Source of the DNA: Campylobacter ureolyticus ACS-301-V-Sch3b
Lineage (GTDB): Bacteria; Campylobacterota; Campylobacteria; Campylobacterales; Campylobacteraceae
DNA length: 64,000 bases
Reading direction: 5' to 3'
NCBI RefSeq assembly: GCF_000413435.1
Contig: NZ_KE340328.1
Coordinates: 79,232-143,231, forward strand
How positions within the stretch are numbered: position 1 is the stretch's first letter; the number at the start of each line of letters is the position of its first letter. Shown here in pieces: positions 31,836 through 40,217 of the stretch. The translations under genes were made by a program, and so were the position numbers. The notes under the pieces were generated by a model. The model saw only the letters and a list, made by a program, of their open reading frames with translations. It searched no databases and was not told where the DNA came from.

Positions 31836-34800
31836 TTAAAGTTTTTGTGCATCTTTTCGCTTAAAGTATGCAAGAGTTGCTAAAATAACCATAACAAGCA
31901 TACTTACCCAGATTGATTTTGGAACTGGTATTGATTCTCCACTAGCGTAGCTATGAAGTCCTGAAAGGTAAAAATTTACTCCAAAATATGTCATCATTAC
32001 GCTCCAAAACGCAAACATTGAAGCTACTGCAAACCAATATTGTGAGTTTGCACCTTTTAATAATCTCATGTGAATTACTGCTGAGTATATTAAAATAGTT
32101 ATTAGTGACCAAGTTTCTTTACTATCCCAACCCCAATATCTTCCCCAACTCTCATTTGCCCAAACTCCACCTAGGAAGTTTCCAGCTGTAAGTAAGCAAA
32201 GTCCAAAAATTAAGCTCATTTCATTTATTCTAGTTGCTTCTAAGATATTTCTTGCAAGCTCATTGTCATTACCAGGTTTTTTAATGATAAATAAAAATAG
32301 ACAAAACATTGCTAAAAGCATACTTAGTCCAAAAAATCCGTAACTTGCGGTTATAACTGAAACATGTATTGTAAGCCAATATGAGTTTAAAACTGGAACT
32401 AAAGTAGTAATTTGTGGATCTATGTGACTAAGATGAGCTACAAAAAGCGTAATTCCTGCCATTATTGATGTTAATGAAAGAGAAATTGCCGAGGTTCTTG
32501 AAAAAATTATGCCACTAAAAGACAGAGCCCAAGCTATATAAACTAGTGATTCATAAGTATTGGACCAAGGCGCGTGGCCTGAGATATACCACCTAAGACC
32601 AAGACCTGTTGTGTGAAGTAAAAAAGCTATGATATTTACTAAATAAACTGCCTTAAAGGCAAAGTTCATATTTAAATTTGGACTCATCATTCTTAAAAAT
32701 ACAAAGATTAAAAGTGCAAAGCCACCAAGCAAATAAACAGGCATTAATCTTTTAAAAATATCAAGATCGTTAAATAAAACTTCAAATTTAAGCTTGTTGT
32801 ATGATGGAACTACCTTTGCTCCTATTTTGTTTTGATATTTTTTTATAAGATCAAGTGCTTTATTAGCCTCACTCCAATTACCGCTTTTTTGAGCATCAAG
32901 AACTGACATTGTGTAGTTTTGAAGAACCATTTTAGCTCTTTTTTCTTCTGCTGCACTAAAATTTGTCATAACTCCGTAAGCTGCATACCAAGTGTGATTA
33001 GGATCATTTTCTTTTGGAATTATTTTAAAGATTGATTTCATTAAAGTTGCATAGTAGATATTAAATCTTTCGTCAACTTTTATAACTTCTTTATCAAATT
33101 TTGTTCTTGTGTTTGGAGCTTTTCTATTTGTTTGTTCTGAAATAAGACCAAGTTTATAGTATGATTTTCCATTTTCATCAGTACCAAAAAAATCTTCAAA
33201 CGAAGCATGAGTTTCATTTGGCTTTAGACCAAGAATTTTTTTAAGCTCATCATCGCCTATTTTTACAAATTTAGTATGTTGCCAACTTTCAGGATTCATA
33301 GTTATTGAAAGCATAGTTTGAACGGCATTCATTCCTTCAAAGCTTTTACCTTTATAAACTTTGCGTAAAATTTCATTTGCCATTGTATCAAATGGCTCCA
33401 TTCTTCCATCAAATCCTTGCACTACTAAAGTAGCAGCTTTTTTGGCGTGTTCTTTATCTATATTTGGTATATTATTTGCTTTTAAGTTATTTGCTGTAAA
33501 AAAGCTAAAAAATGCAACTAAGATAAGACTTAATGCTTTTTTATTTACATTATTATTTTCTTTTTTAACAGTTTTTCTATCTCTTGAACTACTTTTATCT
33601 ATAAGTCTTGCAAGCTCTAAAAATCTTGAGTTTTTGTTAAAGAAATTTAAAAACATTCCAAGCATTAAAAGAAAATATCCAATATAAGTAGGAATTTTAC
33701 CAGGGTCTTTGTTAACTGATAAAATAGTTCCTTTTTCATCTAAATCATAAGAGCTTTGGAAAAACCTAAATCCACCATAATCCAAAACGTGGTTCATATA
33801 AATTTCATAATCCATTTTAAAATCTCCATCTTCTACTACAACCTCACTGCTATATCCAGAAGGCGAATTTGAACCTGGATATCTATCAAGCTTAAAATCT
33901 TTTAGATAAATACTAAAAGGAAGTTCAATCATTTTTGGAGACCAAGCAAATTTAAACTCTTTCCCTCCAACTGTATAGATTCTTGCAAAATCCCCGAAAA
34001 AGGCAAAAACCTCTTTTGTTTCACCATTATATGTCAAATCACCAATTATGGCATTATTTCCTTTTTGAGTCATTGGAACTGATTTAACTCCAAGTTTTGC
34101 TTTTGCAAGCATTGTTGTTGGGGCGAAATTTACACCATCAATTGTGTATAATCTGTGTTTATTAAAATCAATTTCTGTATTTTTTTCAAGTTTTCCATCA
34201 GTATTATCAGACATTTGAAAGTATTTTATATCTTGATTTGTTTGCATATAAAATTTGCCATCATCTTTTAAGTAAATTTTTATAAAATTATGCTGTTTTG
34301 ACTCATTGTTAAAAGTAATATCTAAATCACCAATTGGTAAAATATCTCCACTATTTAAAGTAATTTTTCTTTTATTTTTATCATCTGAAAAAAGAATCTC
34401 TACAATAGGCTTGCCATCATCTGCTTTTATCCAGCCTAAGTCCCCATTTAAAACTAGTTCTTTATATTTAAATACAGCATCTTTTTTTCCTAAATCAAGC
34501 TTCATATCAAAGCTATTTTTCTCATCTGTTGCTATATATCTATTTACATCTTTTGAGATAGTTTTACCTTTTTCATCTTCACTAATGAGTTGGATGTAAA
34601 CTTCCCTTGTTGAGACTAAATTTGTTTTTGTATGCTCTCTTATGTGCATTGAGCCTTCTTTGCCGAAGTAGTGAGTTATCGTTGCACCTACAAAAATTAC
34701 AATAAAACTAAAATGAAATAAAAAGCCAGGTAGCTTTTTAAGTCCATAAATTTTGTATTTAATCATATTGTAAATTAAATTTATAGTAAGTAAAAGCATT

Positions 34801-34958
34801 ATAAGACCAAACCAATTACTTCTATATATAAATGCAAACGCAGCATCCGTTCCTTTTACACTCTCAACTATTGTAGCCACAGCACAGGCAAAGGCAAATA
34901 TTAAAAGTAGAGCATTCATTGCCCTAATACTTAAAAGTCCGCGCAAAAATTTTCCCAT
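31836..34958 (-). CDS. ccsBA: Fused cytochrome c biogenesis protein CcsBA (system II heme synthetase)
   Basis: System II synthetases export heme and attach it to CXXCH motifs of apocytochromes outside the membrane. The 1040-residue protein is the ResB-ResC fusion: about residues 1-450 are CcsB/ResB-like with membrane spans and a large periplasmic domain, a second periplasmic segment lies at about 490-740, and 750-1040 are CcsA/ResC-like with the heme-handling WWD-type motif (WGRYWGWDSKETW) flanked by conserved histidines. Campylobacter uses such fusions generally. Position next to the MccA-type gene makes this copy a candidate synthetase for its CX17CH site, but it may simply be the general enzyme. 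Confidence 0.93.
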   Translation of the reverse strand: MGKFLRGLLSIRAMNALLLIFAFACAVATIVESVKGTDAAFAFIYRSNWFGLIMLLLTINLIYNMIKYKIYGLKKLPGFLFHFSFIVIFVGATITHYFGKEGSMHIREHTKTNLVSTREVYIQLISEDEKGKTISKDVNRYIATDEKNSFDMKLDLGKKDAVFKYKELVLNGDLGWIKADDGKPIVEILFSDDKNKRKITLNSGDILPIGDLDITFNNESKQHNFIKIYLKDDGKFYMQTNQDIKYFQMSDNTDGKLEKNTEIDFNKHRLYTIDGVNFAPTTMLAKAKLGVKSVPMTQKGNNAIIGDLTYNGETKEVFAFFGDFARIYTVGGKEFKFAWSPKMIELPFSIYLKDFKLDRYPGSNSPSGYSSEVVVEDGDFKMDYEIYMNHVLDYGGFRFFQSSYDLDEKGTILSVNKDPGKIPTYIGYFLLMLGMFLNFFNKNSRFLELARLIDKSSSRDRKTVKKENNNVNKKALSLILVAFFSFFTANNLKANNIPNIDKEHAKKAATLVVQGFDGRMEPFDTMANEILRKVYKGKSFEGMNAVQTMLSITMNPESWQHTKFVKIGDDELKKILGLKPNETHASFEDFFGTDENGKSYYKLGLISEQTNRKAPNTRTKFDKEVIKVDERFNIYYATLMKSIFKIIPKENDPNHTWYAAYGVMTNFSAAEEKRAKMVLQNYTMSVLDAQKSGNWSEANKALDLIKKYQNKIGAKVVPSYNKLKFEVLFNDLDIFKRLMPVYLLGGFALLIFVFLRMMSPNLNMNFAFKAVYLVNIIAFLLHTTGLGLRWYISGHAPWSNTYESLVYIAWALSFSGIIFSRTSAISLSLTSIMAGITLFVAHLSHIDPQITTLVPVLNSYWLTIHVSVITASYGFFGLSMLLAMFCLFLFIIKKPGNDNELARNILEATRINEMSLIFGLCLLTAGNFLGGVWANESWGRYWGWDSKETWSLITILIYSAVIHMRLLKGANSQYWFAVASMFAFWSVMMTYFGVNFYLSGLHSYASGESIPVPKSIWVSMLVMVILATLAYFKRKDAQKL

Positions 34959-35039: not shown

Positions 35040-35468
35040 TTATTTAACCCTAACAGGCATAAATAAAAAGTCATAAATTCTCCATTTCGCATCTATCATA
35101 TGCAACACTATGTTTTTTTCAAAAATATGATTTTGTTTTTTGTAATTTGATGTAAGTTTTACAACTGCAATTGTAGGACTACTTTGATCTTTTAAATAAT
35201 CAAATTTAAGCTCAACAACATCATCATTTCTCTTATAGTCATAATCTATATAAAAAAGATCTTTTCCGCCATTTTTTTCTTTAAATTTATCCATATAATC
35301 AAGATTGTTTTTTGGTGCTAAGAGTTTTTCAGCTTCAGTTATTTTACCTTCTTCACACAACAGTATAAAATTATATACAACATCAACAGGGTCTTCTTCA
35401 TTTATTTTTTTAGAACATCCTGTTATAAATAAAAAAACAAATAGAGCTAAAATGAGTTTTTTATACAT
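35040..35468 (-). CDS. Predicted lipoprotein with DUF4878/NTF2-like fold
   Basis: The 142-residue product has a signal peptide ending in the lipobox FITGC, so it is predicted to be lipid-anchored. The mature part (VDVVYNFILLCEEGKITEAEKLL, then beta strands ending in WRIYDFLFMPV) resembles the small cystatin- or NTF2-like lipoproteins of the DUF4878 type. An AAAAGGAT ribosome site precedes the ATG. It lies 81 bases upstream of ccsBA on the same strand and divergently to mccA. The function is unknown. Confidence 0.75.
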   Translation of the reverse strand: MYKKLILALFVFLFITGCSKKINEEDPVDVVYNFILLCEEGKITEAEKLLAPKNNLDYMDKFKEKNGGKDLFYIDYDYKRNDDVVELKFDYLKDQSSPTIAVVKLTSNYKKQNHIFEKNIVLHMIDAKWRIYDFLFMPVRVK

Positions 35469-35939: not shown

Positions 35940-38030
35940 ATGAAAACAAAATGGTTTAAAAAGGCATCACTTGCCTGTTTTATGGTTTTGTTTGCAGGAA
36001 CGGCCTGTTTGCAAGCTGAAGAAAATGCTTCAATGCAGAATGTACCTGTTAAAACAGAGAAAAAAGTTAGTGAGCCAACACTTGCTGATAAATATCAAGA
36101 AGAGATGAAGCAAAATTTAAAGCTTTATCATGATGAAGACCCACTACTTCCAGGTAAGCCAAGAACATTGGAAGACTATGTAAGAGGAGCAGATACTTTT
36201 TTTGATATTTTAATCGATCAACACCCAATGTTTAAGTACGAAAAAGCAGGTAGACTTAGAGGTAAATACACAATGAGCGATAGGCAAGAGGAATTTGTTG
36301 AAATAAACAAAGGTCCTAAATTTGCTGAAAGAGCAGGGTTAGCTCATGCTGCTGTAACATATAGACTTGGAATGGAATCAATTTTGGATTATCCAAATAA
36401 ATTTGTAGGACCAAAAAAATGCGGTGAGTGTCATCCAGCTCAATATGATCAATGGCAAAGATCAAGACATGCAAAAGTTGTAAGATTTCCTGATGAAATG
36501 TCAGAAGTTGGTGGAGCAGAAGGTCTTAAAAAACCTATGTATAATTCACCTTCTACAATATTGCCTTTAGGAATTTATCCTGATGATGTTTATGCGGTTA
36601 TTGGAACCCCTAGAACAAAATATGGATTTATTGATAGATGGTTAGTTAGAGGAACATACCATGTTCAAGAGGGTAATTTAAGTGATTTAAGTGGATATTT
36701 AACAGCTGGTGGTAACCAATTCTCAAGACTTTGGTCTGAGCACATTACTCCAGATATGGCCAAAAAAATAGCTGAATTTAGTCCAGGTTTCCCAACTAAA
36801 ATGGAGGATTTTGCACATTCAAGATCAACTGTTTGGGGTACAAACTCATATGGTTCAAAATATGCTGAAACTATGATGTTTCAACCAGCTAGTTCATACT
36901 GTGAAGTTTGTCATAGCTTTAAATTTGATTTTAAATCAAAAGAAGATTTTTATAATGCAATAGGTGATGCAAAAAAACTTAGAGAACATACTATTTCGCA
37001 AGGTATTAGCTGTGAGGAGTGCCATGGAGCAGGAGCTCACCTTTATGGTGCAAGAGGTGCCGGTATGCCATCAAATTGTGAAAGATGTCACCAAAGATTT
37101 GCTTATCAAGACGATGAAAAAAATCCAAATCCAAGAAAACCATTTAACGTTTATTTCAAATCAAGCTGTCCAGCTTGTGGAACAGAGGGTTCTCAAATGT
37201 ATAGCTCACTCCACTATGATAAAGGTATGAGATGTACAACTTGTCATGATCCACATGAAGTTACAGCAAATGATTGGACAACAGAATATACAAGAGTTGG
37301 ACTTAAAAAAACTTGTCAAGATTGTCACGAAACTCAAGCAGAGTTTTTCAAAGCAATGGGTGGAATTCATGCAAAAGATAATTGTACTGGATGTCACATG
37401 CCAAATATGATGAGTTGTGAGAACTTTGCTGCTATTCAAAACCCTGATAAAGCAGGATTTGATAACGTTAGAGCAAGCCATATCTGGAAAATAGATATTC
37501 ACCCAACAAGAAAATCAATCAACCCACCTGAAGGCAAACCAAGAGACCCACTAAAAGTAAAAGGCTGGAGAATGGAAAGAGATCAAAACGGTAGATTCTT
37601 TGTTGACTTGATGTGGAGTTGTGGTAGAACAAGCTTTAGTGATCCTGATTTAGTTGAACCAGGTGCAAGTGGATGTCATAGCCCTGTTCAATCAACATTG
37701 CCAAATGACTTGAAATTTACAAATCAAGAGATGATTTATGAAAAAGTTATGGCATGGCAAACTCCTGTAAAAGAGGGATACGAAAAAATTAAACAAGGCT
37801 TAAGAGAGTTAGATAAAGCTTTAGCTAATTCTCAAGGTTTAGATATTGAGAAAAGATCAAGAGCAATATTCTTAACAAATGAGGCTAATAAAATTAAGAA
37901 AAAACTTGAAGATGATGGTGCTTGGGGTGTTCACGGACCACAATATTCAAAGAAAATTGTTGATGAGGCGTTAGTATATATAGAGCAGGCTCAAGATATA
38001 CTAAAATCAACTAAAACTACTAGAAAATAG
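35940..38030 (+). CDS. mccA: Octaheme MccA-type sulfite reductase
   Basis: MccA, known from Wolinella succinogenes, reduces sulfite to sulfide in the periplasm with eight c-type hemes and a copper site. This 696-residue exported protein has a signal peptide (residues 1-26), seven CXXCH motifs at 161, 321, 358, 380, 432, 459 and 482, and an eighth, unconventional site: Cys561 followed seventeen residues later by Cys-His (579-580). That long heme motif defines the family. Cys410, Cys413 (CPAC) and Cys493 are outside heme motifs and are candidates for copper. The C-terminal 100 residues are helical, as expected for the trimer-forming part. Full length and intact; the identification is by motif pattern, not by alignment. 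Confidence 0.88.
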   Translation: MKTKWFKKASLACFMVLFAGTACLQAEENASMQNVPVKTEKKVSEPTLADKYQEEMKQNLKLYHDEDPLLPGKPRTLEDYVRGADTFFDILIDQHPMFKYEKAGRLRGKYTMSDRQEEFVEINKGPKFAERAGLAHAAVTYRLGMESILDYPNKFVGPKKCGECHPAQYDQWQRSRHAKVVRFPDEMSEVGGAEGLKKPMYNSPSTILPLGIYPDDVYAVIGTPRTKYGFIDRWLVRGTYHVQEGNLSDLSGYLTAGGNQFSRLWSEHITPDMAKKIAEFSPGFPTKMEDFAHSRSTVWGTNSYGSKYAETMMFQPASSYCEVCHSFKFDFKSKEDFYNAIGDAKKLREHTISQGISCEECHGAGAHLYGARGAGMPSNCERCHQRFAYQDDEKNPNPRKPFNVYFKSSCPACGTEGSQMYSSLHYDKGMRCTTCHDPHEVTANDWTTEYTRVGLKKTCQDCHETQAEFFKAMGGIHAKDNCTGCHMPNMMSCENFAAIQNPDKAGFDNVRASHIWKIDIHPTRKSINPPEGKPRDPLKVKGWRMERDQNGRFFVDLMWSCGRTSFSDPDLVEPGASGCHSPVQSTLPNDLKFTNQEMIYEKVMAWQTPVKEGYEKIKQGLRELDKALANSQGLDIEKRSRAIFLTNEANKIKKKLEDDGAWGVHGPQYSKKIVDEALVYIEQAQDILKSTKTTRK

Positions 38031-38042
38031 AGTAGCCTTCTA

Positions 38043-38072
38043 AAAAGTTTGGCTTTAATTAGCCAAACTTTT
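38043..38072 (+). terminator. Intercistronic hairpin between mccA and the downstream fusion gene
   Basis: A perfect 12-bp stem (AAAAGTTTGGCT at 38043-38054, AGCCAAACTTTT at 38061-38072) with a six-base loop lies in the 63-base gap. Its T run is short, so it may be a partial terminator or an mRNA-stabilising element that favours mccA over the downstream gene. Confidence 0.65.
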
Positions 38073-38093: not shown

Positions 38094-40184
38094 ATGAATA
38101 AATTAATTAAAAATATATTTATTGCTACTTTTGTGGTTTTAGCTTCTATGACTATGATCCCAAAAGCTCATGCCTCTGGTGATGGAAGTATGGCTTTCGT
38201 AGATGGTGTAGTGCCTATTAGCATTTCAGAAGCAAAAGAGCTTATGAAAGATGGTGCATATATCTTTGATGCAAATGAGCTTGAAGTTAGACAAGAGTAT
38301 GGGCACATTGAAGGTGCTGTTCATATAAATGTAGATAATTGGGAGAGATTATTACCAAAAGACAAAGATGCTATCATTATAGTTCATTGTTTAAACAGAA
38401 TTTGCTTTATAGGCAGTGAAGTTGCTTTGGAGATGCAAAAACTTGGATATAAAAATGTATATGTAATGATAGAAGGAATCGAGCAGTGGATATTAAGTGG
38501 TAATCCAGTTGTAAAAGATGCAGTAGATCCAGCTGAACTTAAAAATAAATATTTAGGAAACAATAACTGGGAAAAGTCATCTAAAGTAACTGACTACACC
38601 GATACAATCCATAGACAAATTTTATTTGGTGAAATTCCTTCATGTAGAGATTGTCACGGTATAAATGTAGGAAGCGATGCAAAAAGTATCAATGTTGATT
38701 TTGCAAGTCTAAGAAAAAATGTAAATAAAAACTGTATGTCTTGTCACGATGATATTGGTGAAGAATTTAAATCAAGTATTCATAGCAGTATTGCAAATAC
38801 TAAAAAAGGACTTCCATTATGTTCTGATTGTCATAACATACATATGGGACCAGCAGTTTCAAGCATAAATATGAAAAAATTTGCTGATAAAAAATGTGGA
38901 GATTGCCACCAAAAAGAACAAGCCATGTATCATACAACTTTCCACGGTAAGGCTATGCTTTTAGAAAATCCAGGAAAGGCTATAACTGTTGCAGCTTGTT
39001 ATGATTGTCACGGAACACACAATATTTACTCTGTAGATGATGCTAGATCAACACTTTACAAAGGTGAAAAAAGAACAGAAACTTGTGCTTCTTGTCACCC
39101 TGGCGGAAATCAAAATTTCTCAGAGTTTATGGCTCATGCTGATCATACAGATGGCAAGAACTATCCAGTATTAAATTTTGCTTATAAATTTATGACAGCA
39201 CTTATTATAGTGGTATTTGGATTCTTTGGTATTCATACTTTATTGTGGTTTATAAGACTTACAATGACAAGAATGAAATATTCAAAAGAATGGAAAGAAG
39301 CTAAACATAGGGCACATTCTGATAAAGTAAAGATTAAAAGATTTACAGGATTCCATAAAGTTCAGCACTTCTTCTTAGCAGCAAGCTTTTTGGGATTAGG
39401 CTTTTCAGGTATGCCACAAAAATATCATACAGCTGATTGGGCTCAAAGTATGATTGATTTAATGGGTGGACCAATTGGTGCAACTAAGATTCACCACATT
39501 TCAGCGTTTATAATGCTAGCTGTTGTGTTTAGTCACTTCGTAGAGATAATCGTAGTTGCTTATAGAAATAGACAAGCTGTAATTAATCCAAATACTGGTA
39601 AATTTAGTTGGAAAATTTTCTGGAGAAAATTCTTTGGACCTGATTCATTAGTTCCAAATTTCCAAGACTTTAGAGATTTGAAAAACAATTTCTTATGGTT
39701 TATCGGTAAAAAAGATAAAATGCCTCAATTTGACAGATGGACATATTGGGAAAAATTTGACTATATTGCAGTTTTCTGGGGTATGTTAATCATCGGTTTA
39801 TCAGGGCTTATGCTTTGGTTCCCAGTTACATTTACAAAAGTTTTACCAGGACAAATGCTAAATCTTGCTACATTCTTACATTCAGATGAGGCGTTGCTAG
39901 CATTAGGATTTATATTTGCAGTACATTTCTTCCATACACACTTTAGGGCAAATAAATTCCCTATGGATACAGTTATTTTCTCAGGAAATTTAACTGAAGA
40001 AGAGATGAAACAAGAAAGAACTCCTTGGTATAATAGACTAAAAGAAAGTGGTAAATTTGATGAATTAATCGTTAAAGATGACAACTTTGATAAGTGGAAA
40101 TGGCTTGCTTACATAGTAGGTTATGCGATGCTTATAACAGGTATTATTTTCTTATTGATGATAATTTATTACTACATTTTCTAA
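38094..40184 (+). CDS. Rhodanese-hexaheme-cytochrome b fusion protein, probable quinol dehydrogenase for MccA
   Basis: Three modules are fused in 696 residues. After a signal peptide (1-28) comes a rhodanese-like domain (about 40-140) with candidate sulfur-accepting Cys99 in VHCLNR and the later VYVMIEGIEQWILSG strand-helix typical of rhodanese ends. Six CXXCH motifs follow at 184, 214, 243, 268, 302 and 331. From about 360 a membrane domain with five to six spans has paired histidines (HKVQHF, KIHHISA, FSHF, HFFHTHF) like the formate dehydrogenase gamma/cytochrome b561 group. It follows mccA, and I infer that it passes electrons from menaquinol to MccA. I know of no described protein with this order, and no NrfC/NrfD-type genes are nearby. 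Confidence 0.8.
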   Translation: MNKLIKNIFIATFVVLASMTMIPKAHASGDGSMAFVDGVVPISISEAKELMKDGAYIFDANELEVRQEYGHIEGAVHINVDNWERLLPKDKDAIIIVHCLNRICFIGSEVALEMQKLGYKNVYVMIEGIEQWILSGNPVVKDAVDPAELKNKYLGNNNWEKSSKVTDYTDTIHRQILFGEIPSCRDCHGINVGSDAKSINVDFASLRKNVNKNCMSCHDDIGEEFKSSIHSSIANTKKGLPLCSDCHNIHMGPAVSSINMKKFADKKCGDCHQKEQAMYHTTFHGKAMLLENPGKAITVAACYDCHGTHNIYSVDDARSTLYKGEKRTETCASCHPGGNQNFSEFMAHADHTDGKNYPVLNFAYKFMTALIIVVFGFFGIHTLLWFIRLTMTRMKYSKEWKEAKHRAHSDKVKIKRFTGFHKVQHFFLAASFLGLGFSGMPQKYHTADWAQSMIDLMGGPIGATKIHHISAFIMLAVVFSHFVEIIVVAYRNRQAVINPNTGKFSWKIFWRKFFGPDSLVPNFQDFRDLKNNFLWFIGKKDKMPQFDRWTYWEKFDYIAVFWGMLIIGLSGLMLWFPVTFTKVLPGQMLNLATFLHSDEALLALGFIFAVHFFHTHFRANKFPMDTVIFSGNLTEEEMKQERTPWYNRLKESGKFDELIVKDDNFDKWKWLAYIVGYAMLITGIIFLLMIIYYYIF

Positions 40185-40189
40185 TTTTT

Positions 40190-40217
40190 AAGCCACCTTT
40201 TTAAGGTGGCTTTTTTT
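40190..40217 (+). terminator. Strong terminator of the mcc-type operon
   Basis: A perfect 8-bp stem (AAGCCACC at 40190-40197, GGTGGCTT at 40205-40212) followed by a run of T closes the two-gene unit. Confidence 0.85.

Follow-up and report, generated by a model that had tools for sequence, protein, structure and literature searches.

A rhodanese-hexahaem-cytochrome b fusion protein as a probable alternative quinol dehydrogenase for the MccA sulfite reductase of Campylobacteria

A fusion gene directly downstream of mccA

We analysed a stretch of 64,000 nucleotides from Campylobacter ureolyticus ACS-301-V-Sch3b (contig NZ_KE340328.1, positions 79,232 to 143,231, hereafter the window) in which the gene for an octahaem sulfite reductase of the MccA/SirA type is followed on the same strand, after a gap of 63 bp, by a gene for a protein that joins a rhodanese domain, six CXXCH haem-binding sites and a multi-span membrane domain. 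An initial annotation made from the sequence had described this combination, its export and its placement after mccA, and all of these hold. The protein opens with a signal-like N terminus, the rhodanese domain matches Pfam PF00581 above the cut-off and takes the rhodanese fold, and the membrane part is a six-helix domain that is FdnI-like in a comparison using its predicted structure. A chance match to a weak rhodanese was considered and ruled out by the Pfam match, the fold and the presence of the domain in 43/43 members of the set A1. Both Cys99 and Cys104 are present within the active loop of the window protein. The features of the locus are collected in Table 1.

Table 1 Features of the mccA locus, in coordinates of the window
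Feature	Position	Strand	Details
Rhodanese-hexahaem c-cytochrome b fusion protein	38094..40184	+	696 aa
Signal-like N terminus	38094..38177	+	aa 1-28, ending in KAHA; boundary placed by eye; hydropathy peak at aa 3-23
Rhodanese domain	38205..38516	+	aa 38-141
Active-site loop C99-LNRI-C104	38388..38405	+	Alignment of rows, tree
Hexahaem c domain	38601..39128	+	aa 170-345
Six-helix FdnI-like cytochrome b domain	39165..40181	+	aa 358-696
mccA, octahaem MccA/SirA-type sulfite reductase	35940..38030	+	phmmer to 4rkm, motifs
Stem-loop between mccA and the fusion gene	38043..38072	+	12 pairs, loop of 6; z -3.5
Terminator-like hairpin 3' of the fusion gene	40190..40212	+	
CcsBA-type haem lyase, divergent neighbour	31836..34958	-	Candidate member of the unit at most
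Small lipoprotein, function unassigned, divergent neighbour	35040..35468	-	Kept in several relatives; candidate member of the unit at most

Conservation was followed in 100 rhodanese-bearing rows, made up of 44 rows from loci (the window included) and 56 proteins, near-duplicates among them. The protein search drew on the best 120 of 1125 proteins, in which the 56 that bear a rhodanese are the top 56 and the remaining 64 (P0057-P0120), which lack it, served as outgroup. The six CXXCH sites of the fusion, at residues 184, 214, 243, 268, 302 and 331, are conserved in 100/100 rows. Six further histidines outside these motifs (173, 230, 250, 284, 309 and 348) are present in all 100 rhodanese rows and in 64/64 outgroup rows, those from 173 to 309 lying within the hexahaem domain and His348 just past its end, which is the pattern expected of six bis-His haems. 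Within the b domain, for which the structure model predicts helices at 358-395, 419-443, 460-491, 551-575, 587-616 and 665-695, histidines 381, 425, 467, 596, 611 and 616 are equally invariant in both sets. The b domain alone found no match among Protein Data Bank (PDB) sequences onto which b-haem ligands could be mapped as in FdnI, hence the candidate ligands are proposed from invariance only.

The partner reductase matches the MccA of Wolinella (4rkm) in phmmer with E 9.6e-188. It carries seven CXXCH motifs and an eighth haem site of the form CX17CH at 561/579, and its C413 and C493 align with the copper-ligand cysteines of Wolinella MccA, which we take to be Cys399 and Cys495 in agreement with the chain offset of 12 in the 4rkm alignment. 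Homology, the haem motifs and the presumed copper-ligand cysteines thus all place it in the MccA/SirA family.

Two forms of MccA with different partner genes

The survey covered 397 genomes of the class Campylobacteria and 153 genomes of the family, two samples that overlap and so are not independent. In the class, the fusion was found in 41/397 genomes and MccA in 96/397. Co-occurrence with mccA had been proposed as a check in the initial annotation and proved exact, in that the 41 genomes with an MccA 64-97% identical to that of the window are, set against set, the same 41 genomes that carry the fusion. An MccA only 47-50% identical to the window's was found in 55/397 genomes, and the fusion in 0/55 of these. 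In the family sample the full-length fusion is present in 41/153 genomes, and the 83 MccA matches comprise 41 at 64-97% identity, 40 at 48-50% and two broken fragments (genomes G112 and G113). Both forms of MccA occur inside genus g3 and likewise inside genus g1, so the two designs are not simply markers of genera. Decayed loci were also seen: that of genome G070 (L158) keeps a C-terminal fusion remnant of 109 residues and has no mccA match, and those of G112 and G113 (L159, L160) hold the broken mccA fragments with no fusion match.

Gene order follows the same division. In 43 fetched loci and in the window, mccA lies directly 5' of the fusion gene on the same strand, with gaps of 17-83 nt depending on the starts chosen. 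For the other form, 17 loci were fetched from the 40 such genomes of the family, and in 17/17 of them mccA is followed by genes for a peptidyl-prolyl isomerase (PPIase), MccC (NrfC-type), MccD (NrfD-type) and CcsBA, the fusion being absent; MccD is divided into two open reading frames (ORFs) in one of the 17. No match to MccC or MccD was found when 35 fusion loci, two genomes being represented twice, were scanned together with broad flanking regions, and none to MccC, MccD or PPIase within the window, so that neither the window nor these 35 loci encode MccC and MccD with MccA; the initial annotation had been right that no NrfC/NrfD-type pair is encoded here. When 31 fusion genomes were searched for MccD, six gave no match and the top match in the other 25 did not exceed 42% identity, as compared with 69-100% in three genomes of the MccCD form, one of which is the query's own. 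The genome nearest to the window has one NrfD-like match, and the gene cluster in which it lies also encodes a molybdoenzyme and an iron-sulfur protein and, read by eye, is PsrABC/PhsABC-like. MccA respiration in the Campylobacteria is thus of two designs, mutually exclusive in the genomes searched.

The two forms of the reductase also differ in motif when 61 rows are compared (60 from the fetched loci and the window). The eighth haem site is CX15CH in 17/17 MccCD-associated rows and CX17CH in 42/44 rows of the window's form, the other two (genomes G132 and G133) having CX18CH. In addition an extra cysteine, Cys410 within a CPxCG motif and three residues before a copper-ligand position, is present in all 44 fusion-form rows but two from Helicobacter, and the MccCD-associated form has GPGCG there.

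Proposed electron delivery to MccA and possible role of the rhodanese

The initial annotation had named Cys99 as candidate sulfur acceptor, which remains tenable for the window protein, where Cys99 is accompanied by Cys104, and fails as a general mechanism. Among the 100 rows position 99 is Cys in 51, Gly in 42, Ser in 3, Ala in 2, Arg in 1 and Thr in 1, and of the 44 locus rows 17 have Cys99. Cys104 is found in 42 rows, every one with Cys99. Changes in Cys99 were traced on a quickly built tree, which combines the 91 rows that differ in the hexahaem-plus-b core with six from the outgroup, carries no bootstrap and leaves some deep forks open. At least five changes of state are required on it (just two on the subset of 42 genomes), the deepest-branching rows carry both cysteines, and Cys104 was lost with Cys99 kept in two groups. 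Judged from this pattern, Cys99 and Cys104 are probably both ancestral and have been altered in many relatives. Cys99 as the general functional centre of the protein was therefore rejected, being absent in 49/100 rows and changing on the tree. Many of the loci lacking Cys99 have an adjoining mccA of normal length. The C. jejuni protein P0026, which is not tied to a particular strain, has Arg99, and C. jejuni strain 81116 makes MccA according to the available text of PMC5146829.

Where Cys99 is lacking the domain is still constrained. Within four Cys-less groups the omega of the rhodanese is 0.06-0.18, that of the haem part 0.06-0.07 and that of the b part 0.04-0.07, and for the rhodanese in four groups with Cys99 the range is 0.07-0.13. 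These NG86 rates are near saturation in the diverged groups and saturated pairs were dropped, leaving in the Cys-less group of g3 8/15 pairs for the rhodanese, 2/15 for the haem part and 9/15 for the b part. Purifying selection on the Cys-less domain suggests that the rhodanese does something for which Cys99 is not required. As a side observation, the closest pair, the window and genome G001 (which share 36% of sampled 31-letter words), gives an omega of 0.13 for the rhodanese and 0.04 for the b part.

We consider it likely that the fusion is a membrane-bound quinol dehydrogenase for the periplasmic MccA, replacing the MccC/MccD (NrfC/NrfD-type) pair, and the context supports well the role of quinol dehydrogenase beside MccA that the initial annotation had assigned to it. 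Behind this reading stand the architecture of the protein, the gene order, the exclusive pairing with one form of MccA, the occurrence of MccCD in the fusion's place at the fetched loci of the other form and the constraint on the domain where Cys99 is missing. The FdnI-like b domain would oxidise quinol (for sulfite, the accessible part of PMC6682613 relays the suggestion that methylmenaquinone is used), and electrons would pass through what may be two b haems to the six putative bis-His c haems, on to the rhodanese end and from there to MccA. The outgroup proteins carry five extra CXXCH sites upstream of the shared hexahaem domain in 61/64 cases and four in 3/64, spanning a median of 184 residues at the place that the rhodanese takes in the fusion. 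Standing in place of these outer haems, the rhodanese would serve for the docking of MccA or shield the haem from which electrons leave, and its first role is probably that of a cap or a docking element there. Since Cys99 is lacking in so many rows with a normal mccA adjoining and the domain constrained, electron delivery is probably independent of it. The presence of both cysteines in the window makes sulfane-sulfur chemistry possible in this protein, and they would add such handling only in the lineages that keep both.

Several observations weigh against the quinol dehydrogenase reading or narrow it. The 41 and the 55 genomes are not independent events because the partition is inherited within clades, and in G227 (Ca. 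Helicobacter avistercoris), which is among the 41, the mccA match has stops and a short open frame. Divergence in MccA and in the core of the fusion is only partly correlated (Spearman 0.68, 44 rows), and in G132 and G133 (loci L184 and L185) an MccA 82-83% identical to the form of the window and G001 stands beside a fusion core at 59%, which points to an exchange of mccA alone. By sequence the b domain scores under its Pfam cut-off, and the linker at residues 144-178 has a predicted confidence (pLDDT) below 50, so the placement of the rhodanese relative to the haems is undefined in the model. Finally the rhodanese evolves faster than the b domain, with a median ratio of nonsynonymous rates (dN) of 2.02 in Cys-less rows (284 pairs) and 1.62 in Cys99 rows (134 pairs). 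The haem part rises likewise, its median ratio to the b domain being 2.29 in Cys-less and 1.57 in Cys99 rows, and hence there is no relaxation peculiar to the rhodanese.

The alternatives differ mainly in what they ask of the rhodanese. That it is purely structural or a docking element everywhere, with the cysteines a relic, is possible although we would lean against it: Cys99 has changed several times with the domain still constrained, and P88, G118, G128 and W132 are conserved in 100/100 rhodanese-bearing rows, but in the clade of 19 rows to which the window belongs both Cys99 and Cys104 have lasted through long branches, which argues for selection on them.

An enzymatic role in the Cys99/Cys104 lineages, as a quinol-driven thiosulfate or persulfide reductase, which sharpens the mechanism put forward in the initial annotation, appears unlikely. 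Cys99 would take the outer sulfur of thiosulfate and free sulfite for MccA, Cys104 would resolve the persulfide into a disulfide and sulfide, and the haem chain would reduce the disulfide. Both cysteines do lie within the rhodanese active loop, Cys104 never occurs without Cys99, the deepest-branching rows have both, and the domain occupies the end from which electrons are expected to leave, a place taken by haems in the outgroup. Such an enzyme would be expected to keep Cys99 across the family; the 51 rows and the repeated changes on the tree, at loci mostly with a normal-length mccA, do not fit this, and no structure shows Cys99 near a haem. SoxA/TsdA-type genes (PF21342), whose products might use thiosulfate or tetrathionate, occur more often in genomes with Cys99 (10/15 versus 6/27, Fisher p 0.008; the count excludes G258, which has Ala99 and no match, G138 and the window), but correcting for relatedness leaves nothing of the link (2 independent pairs, p 1), which was dropped. 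The nearest genome, moreover, already has its PsrABC/PhsABC-like cluster. The fullest version of the idea, a molybdenum-free, quinol-driven reductase in these lineages whose rhodanese tip would cleave thiosulfate and pass sulfite to MccA, with the haem wire reducing the Cys99-Cys104 disulfide and both sulfurs leaving as sulfide, is rather unlikely.

A protective role of the rhodanese towards MccA, or one in recycling what MccA makes on the side, is improbable; the domain would clear polysulfide, or the thiosulfate that arises when sulfite meets sulfane sulfur, but many other rhodaneses in the same comparison list score as high or higher. That the fusion feeds a general periplasmic cytochrome pool and adjoins mccA fortuitously is very improbable: no ORF in 76 loci outside the Campylobacterota, many of them on short contigs, has MccA as best match above 60 bits, but the pairing with one form of MccA is exclusive in 41/41 genomes and G070, with no mccA match, has only a remnant of the fusion.

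If the fusion is the quinol dehydrogenase of MccA, then in species such as C. ureolyticus, C. sputorum and C. lari the electrons for MccA would not come from an MccCD pair like that known in Wolinella. We regard the find as a variation on MccA respiration, with another donor module. A sulfur-transferase domain that takes the place of four or five haems, and whose catalytic cysteine then changes several times, would provide a natural series in which the contribution of a rhodanese to a respiratory chain could be studied. The type of donor also predicts a different energy coupling, since the FdnI-like quinol site would lie near the cytoplasmic face and the membrane potential could help to reduce a low-potential acceptor, as judged from the structure of FdnI and the literature on CbcL.

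Neighbouring elements and known systems

The stem-loop between mccA and the fusion gene was matched by 0/200 shuffles, and a stem-loop is found 3' of mccA at the same place in most relatives, with differing sequences. The 70 nt after mccA reach z <= -2 in 34/44 fusion-form and 13/17 MccCD-form loci, and random 70-mers from fusion loci do so in 10/132 cases. Such a stem-loop after mccA, whichever gene follows, may set the ratio of reductase to donor.

The divergent CcsBA gene was considered as a dedicated haem lyase for MccA, which for the nearest genome is unlikely because only a single CcsBA was found there. One CcsBA each was counted in G001, G068, G063 and G132 and two in G087, G090, G129, G022, G055 and G004. 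Wolinella needs a dedicated haem lyase for the odd haem of MccA, according to the portion of PMC6976685 at hand; here a general CcsBA lyase may serve the CX17CH site. At the C. lari-type and Helicobacter loci L188, L183 and L002 the fusion gene is followed by genes for a thioredoxin-like lipoprotein and for CcsBA, the latter some 900 residues long; both are probably maturation factors of MccA. In C. jejuni the thioredoxin C8J_0031 possibly serves MccA, in the excerpt of PMC7089426 available to us.

The initial annotation knew of no described protein with this order of domains. In the parts of the open-licence literature covered we found no description either, although an earlier mention in the main MccA papers is possible and the protein itself is common in databases under the name 'rhodanese-like domain-containing protein'.

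Among the matches listed without a rhodanese, the closest are the outgroup proteins with 10-11 haems and a cytochrome b domain (P0057-P0120), which with longer kin at loci L004-L080 come from Verrucomicrobia and other phyla. Their hexahaem and b domains align with the fusion throughout (median identity 42% and 47%) and have the same haem ligands, but four or five more haems replace the rhodanese, and no MccA was found alongside at L004-L080, which come from the best 80 of 580 relatives in a scan of genome contigs. The single-domain rhodaneses GlpE and Sud share the fold and a cysteine in the active loop; unlike them, the protein described here is fused to haem and membrane domains, has a second loop cysteine and includes many Cys-less orthologues. 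FdnI, the gamma subunit of formate dehydrogenase-N, is in contrast to the fusion a separate subunit, with another electron donor and the opposite direction of electron flow.

CbcL of Geobacter (PMC9129911) likewise has a multihaem c domain, periplasmic and with bis-His ligation, fused to a b domain of six helices and two haems, a combination that the sequence and the structure model predict for the fusion, and it serves low-potential acceptors. Its c haems number nine, as against the six CXXCH sites of the fusion, and the available part of that paper makes no mention of a rhodanese; the likeness is drawn from the described domain layout. In Dethiobacter, octahaems resembling MccA or Otr are clustered with separate rhodanese-domain proteins (PMC10376724, from the part available), an independent hint that MccA-like octahaems and rhodaneses go together.

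Among the closest known systems are MccACD and SirACD of Wolinella and Shewanella, in which, according to the consulted sections of PMC8076601 and PMC6976685, an octahaem reductase of the MccA type likewise works with a membrane quinol dehydrogenase dedicated to it. Unlike these, the window has no match to MccC, MccD or PPIase, the eighth haem site of its MccA is CX17CH and not CX15CH, and the probable donor is a single rhodanese-hexahaem-cytochrome b protein.
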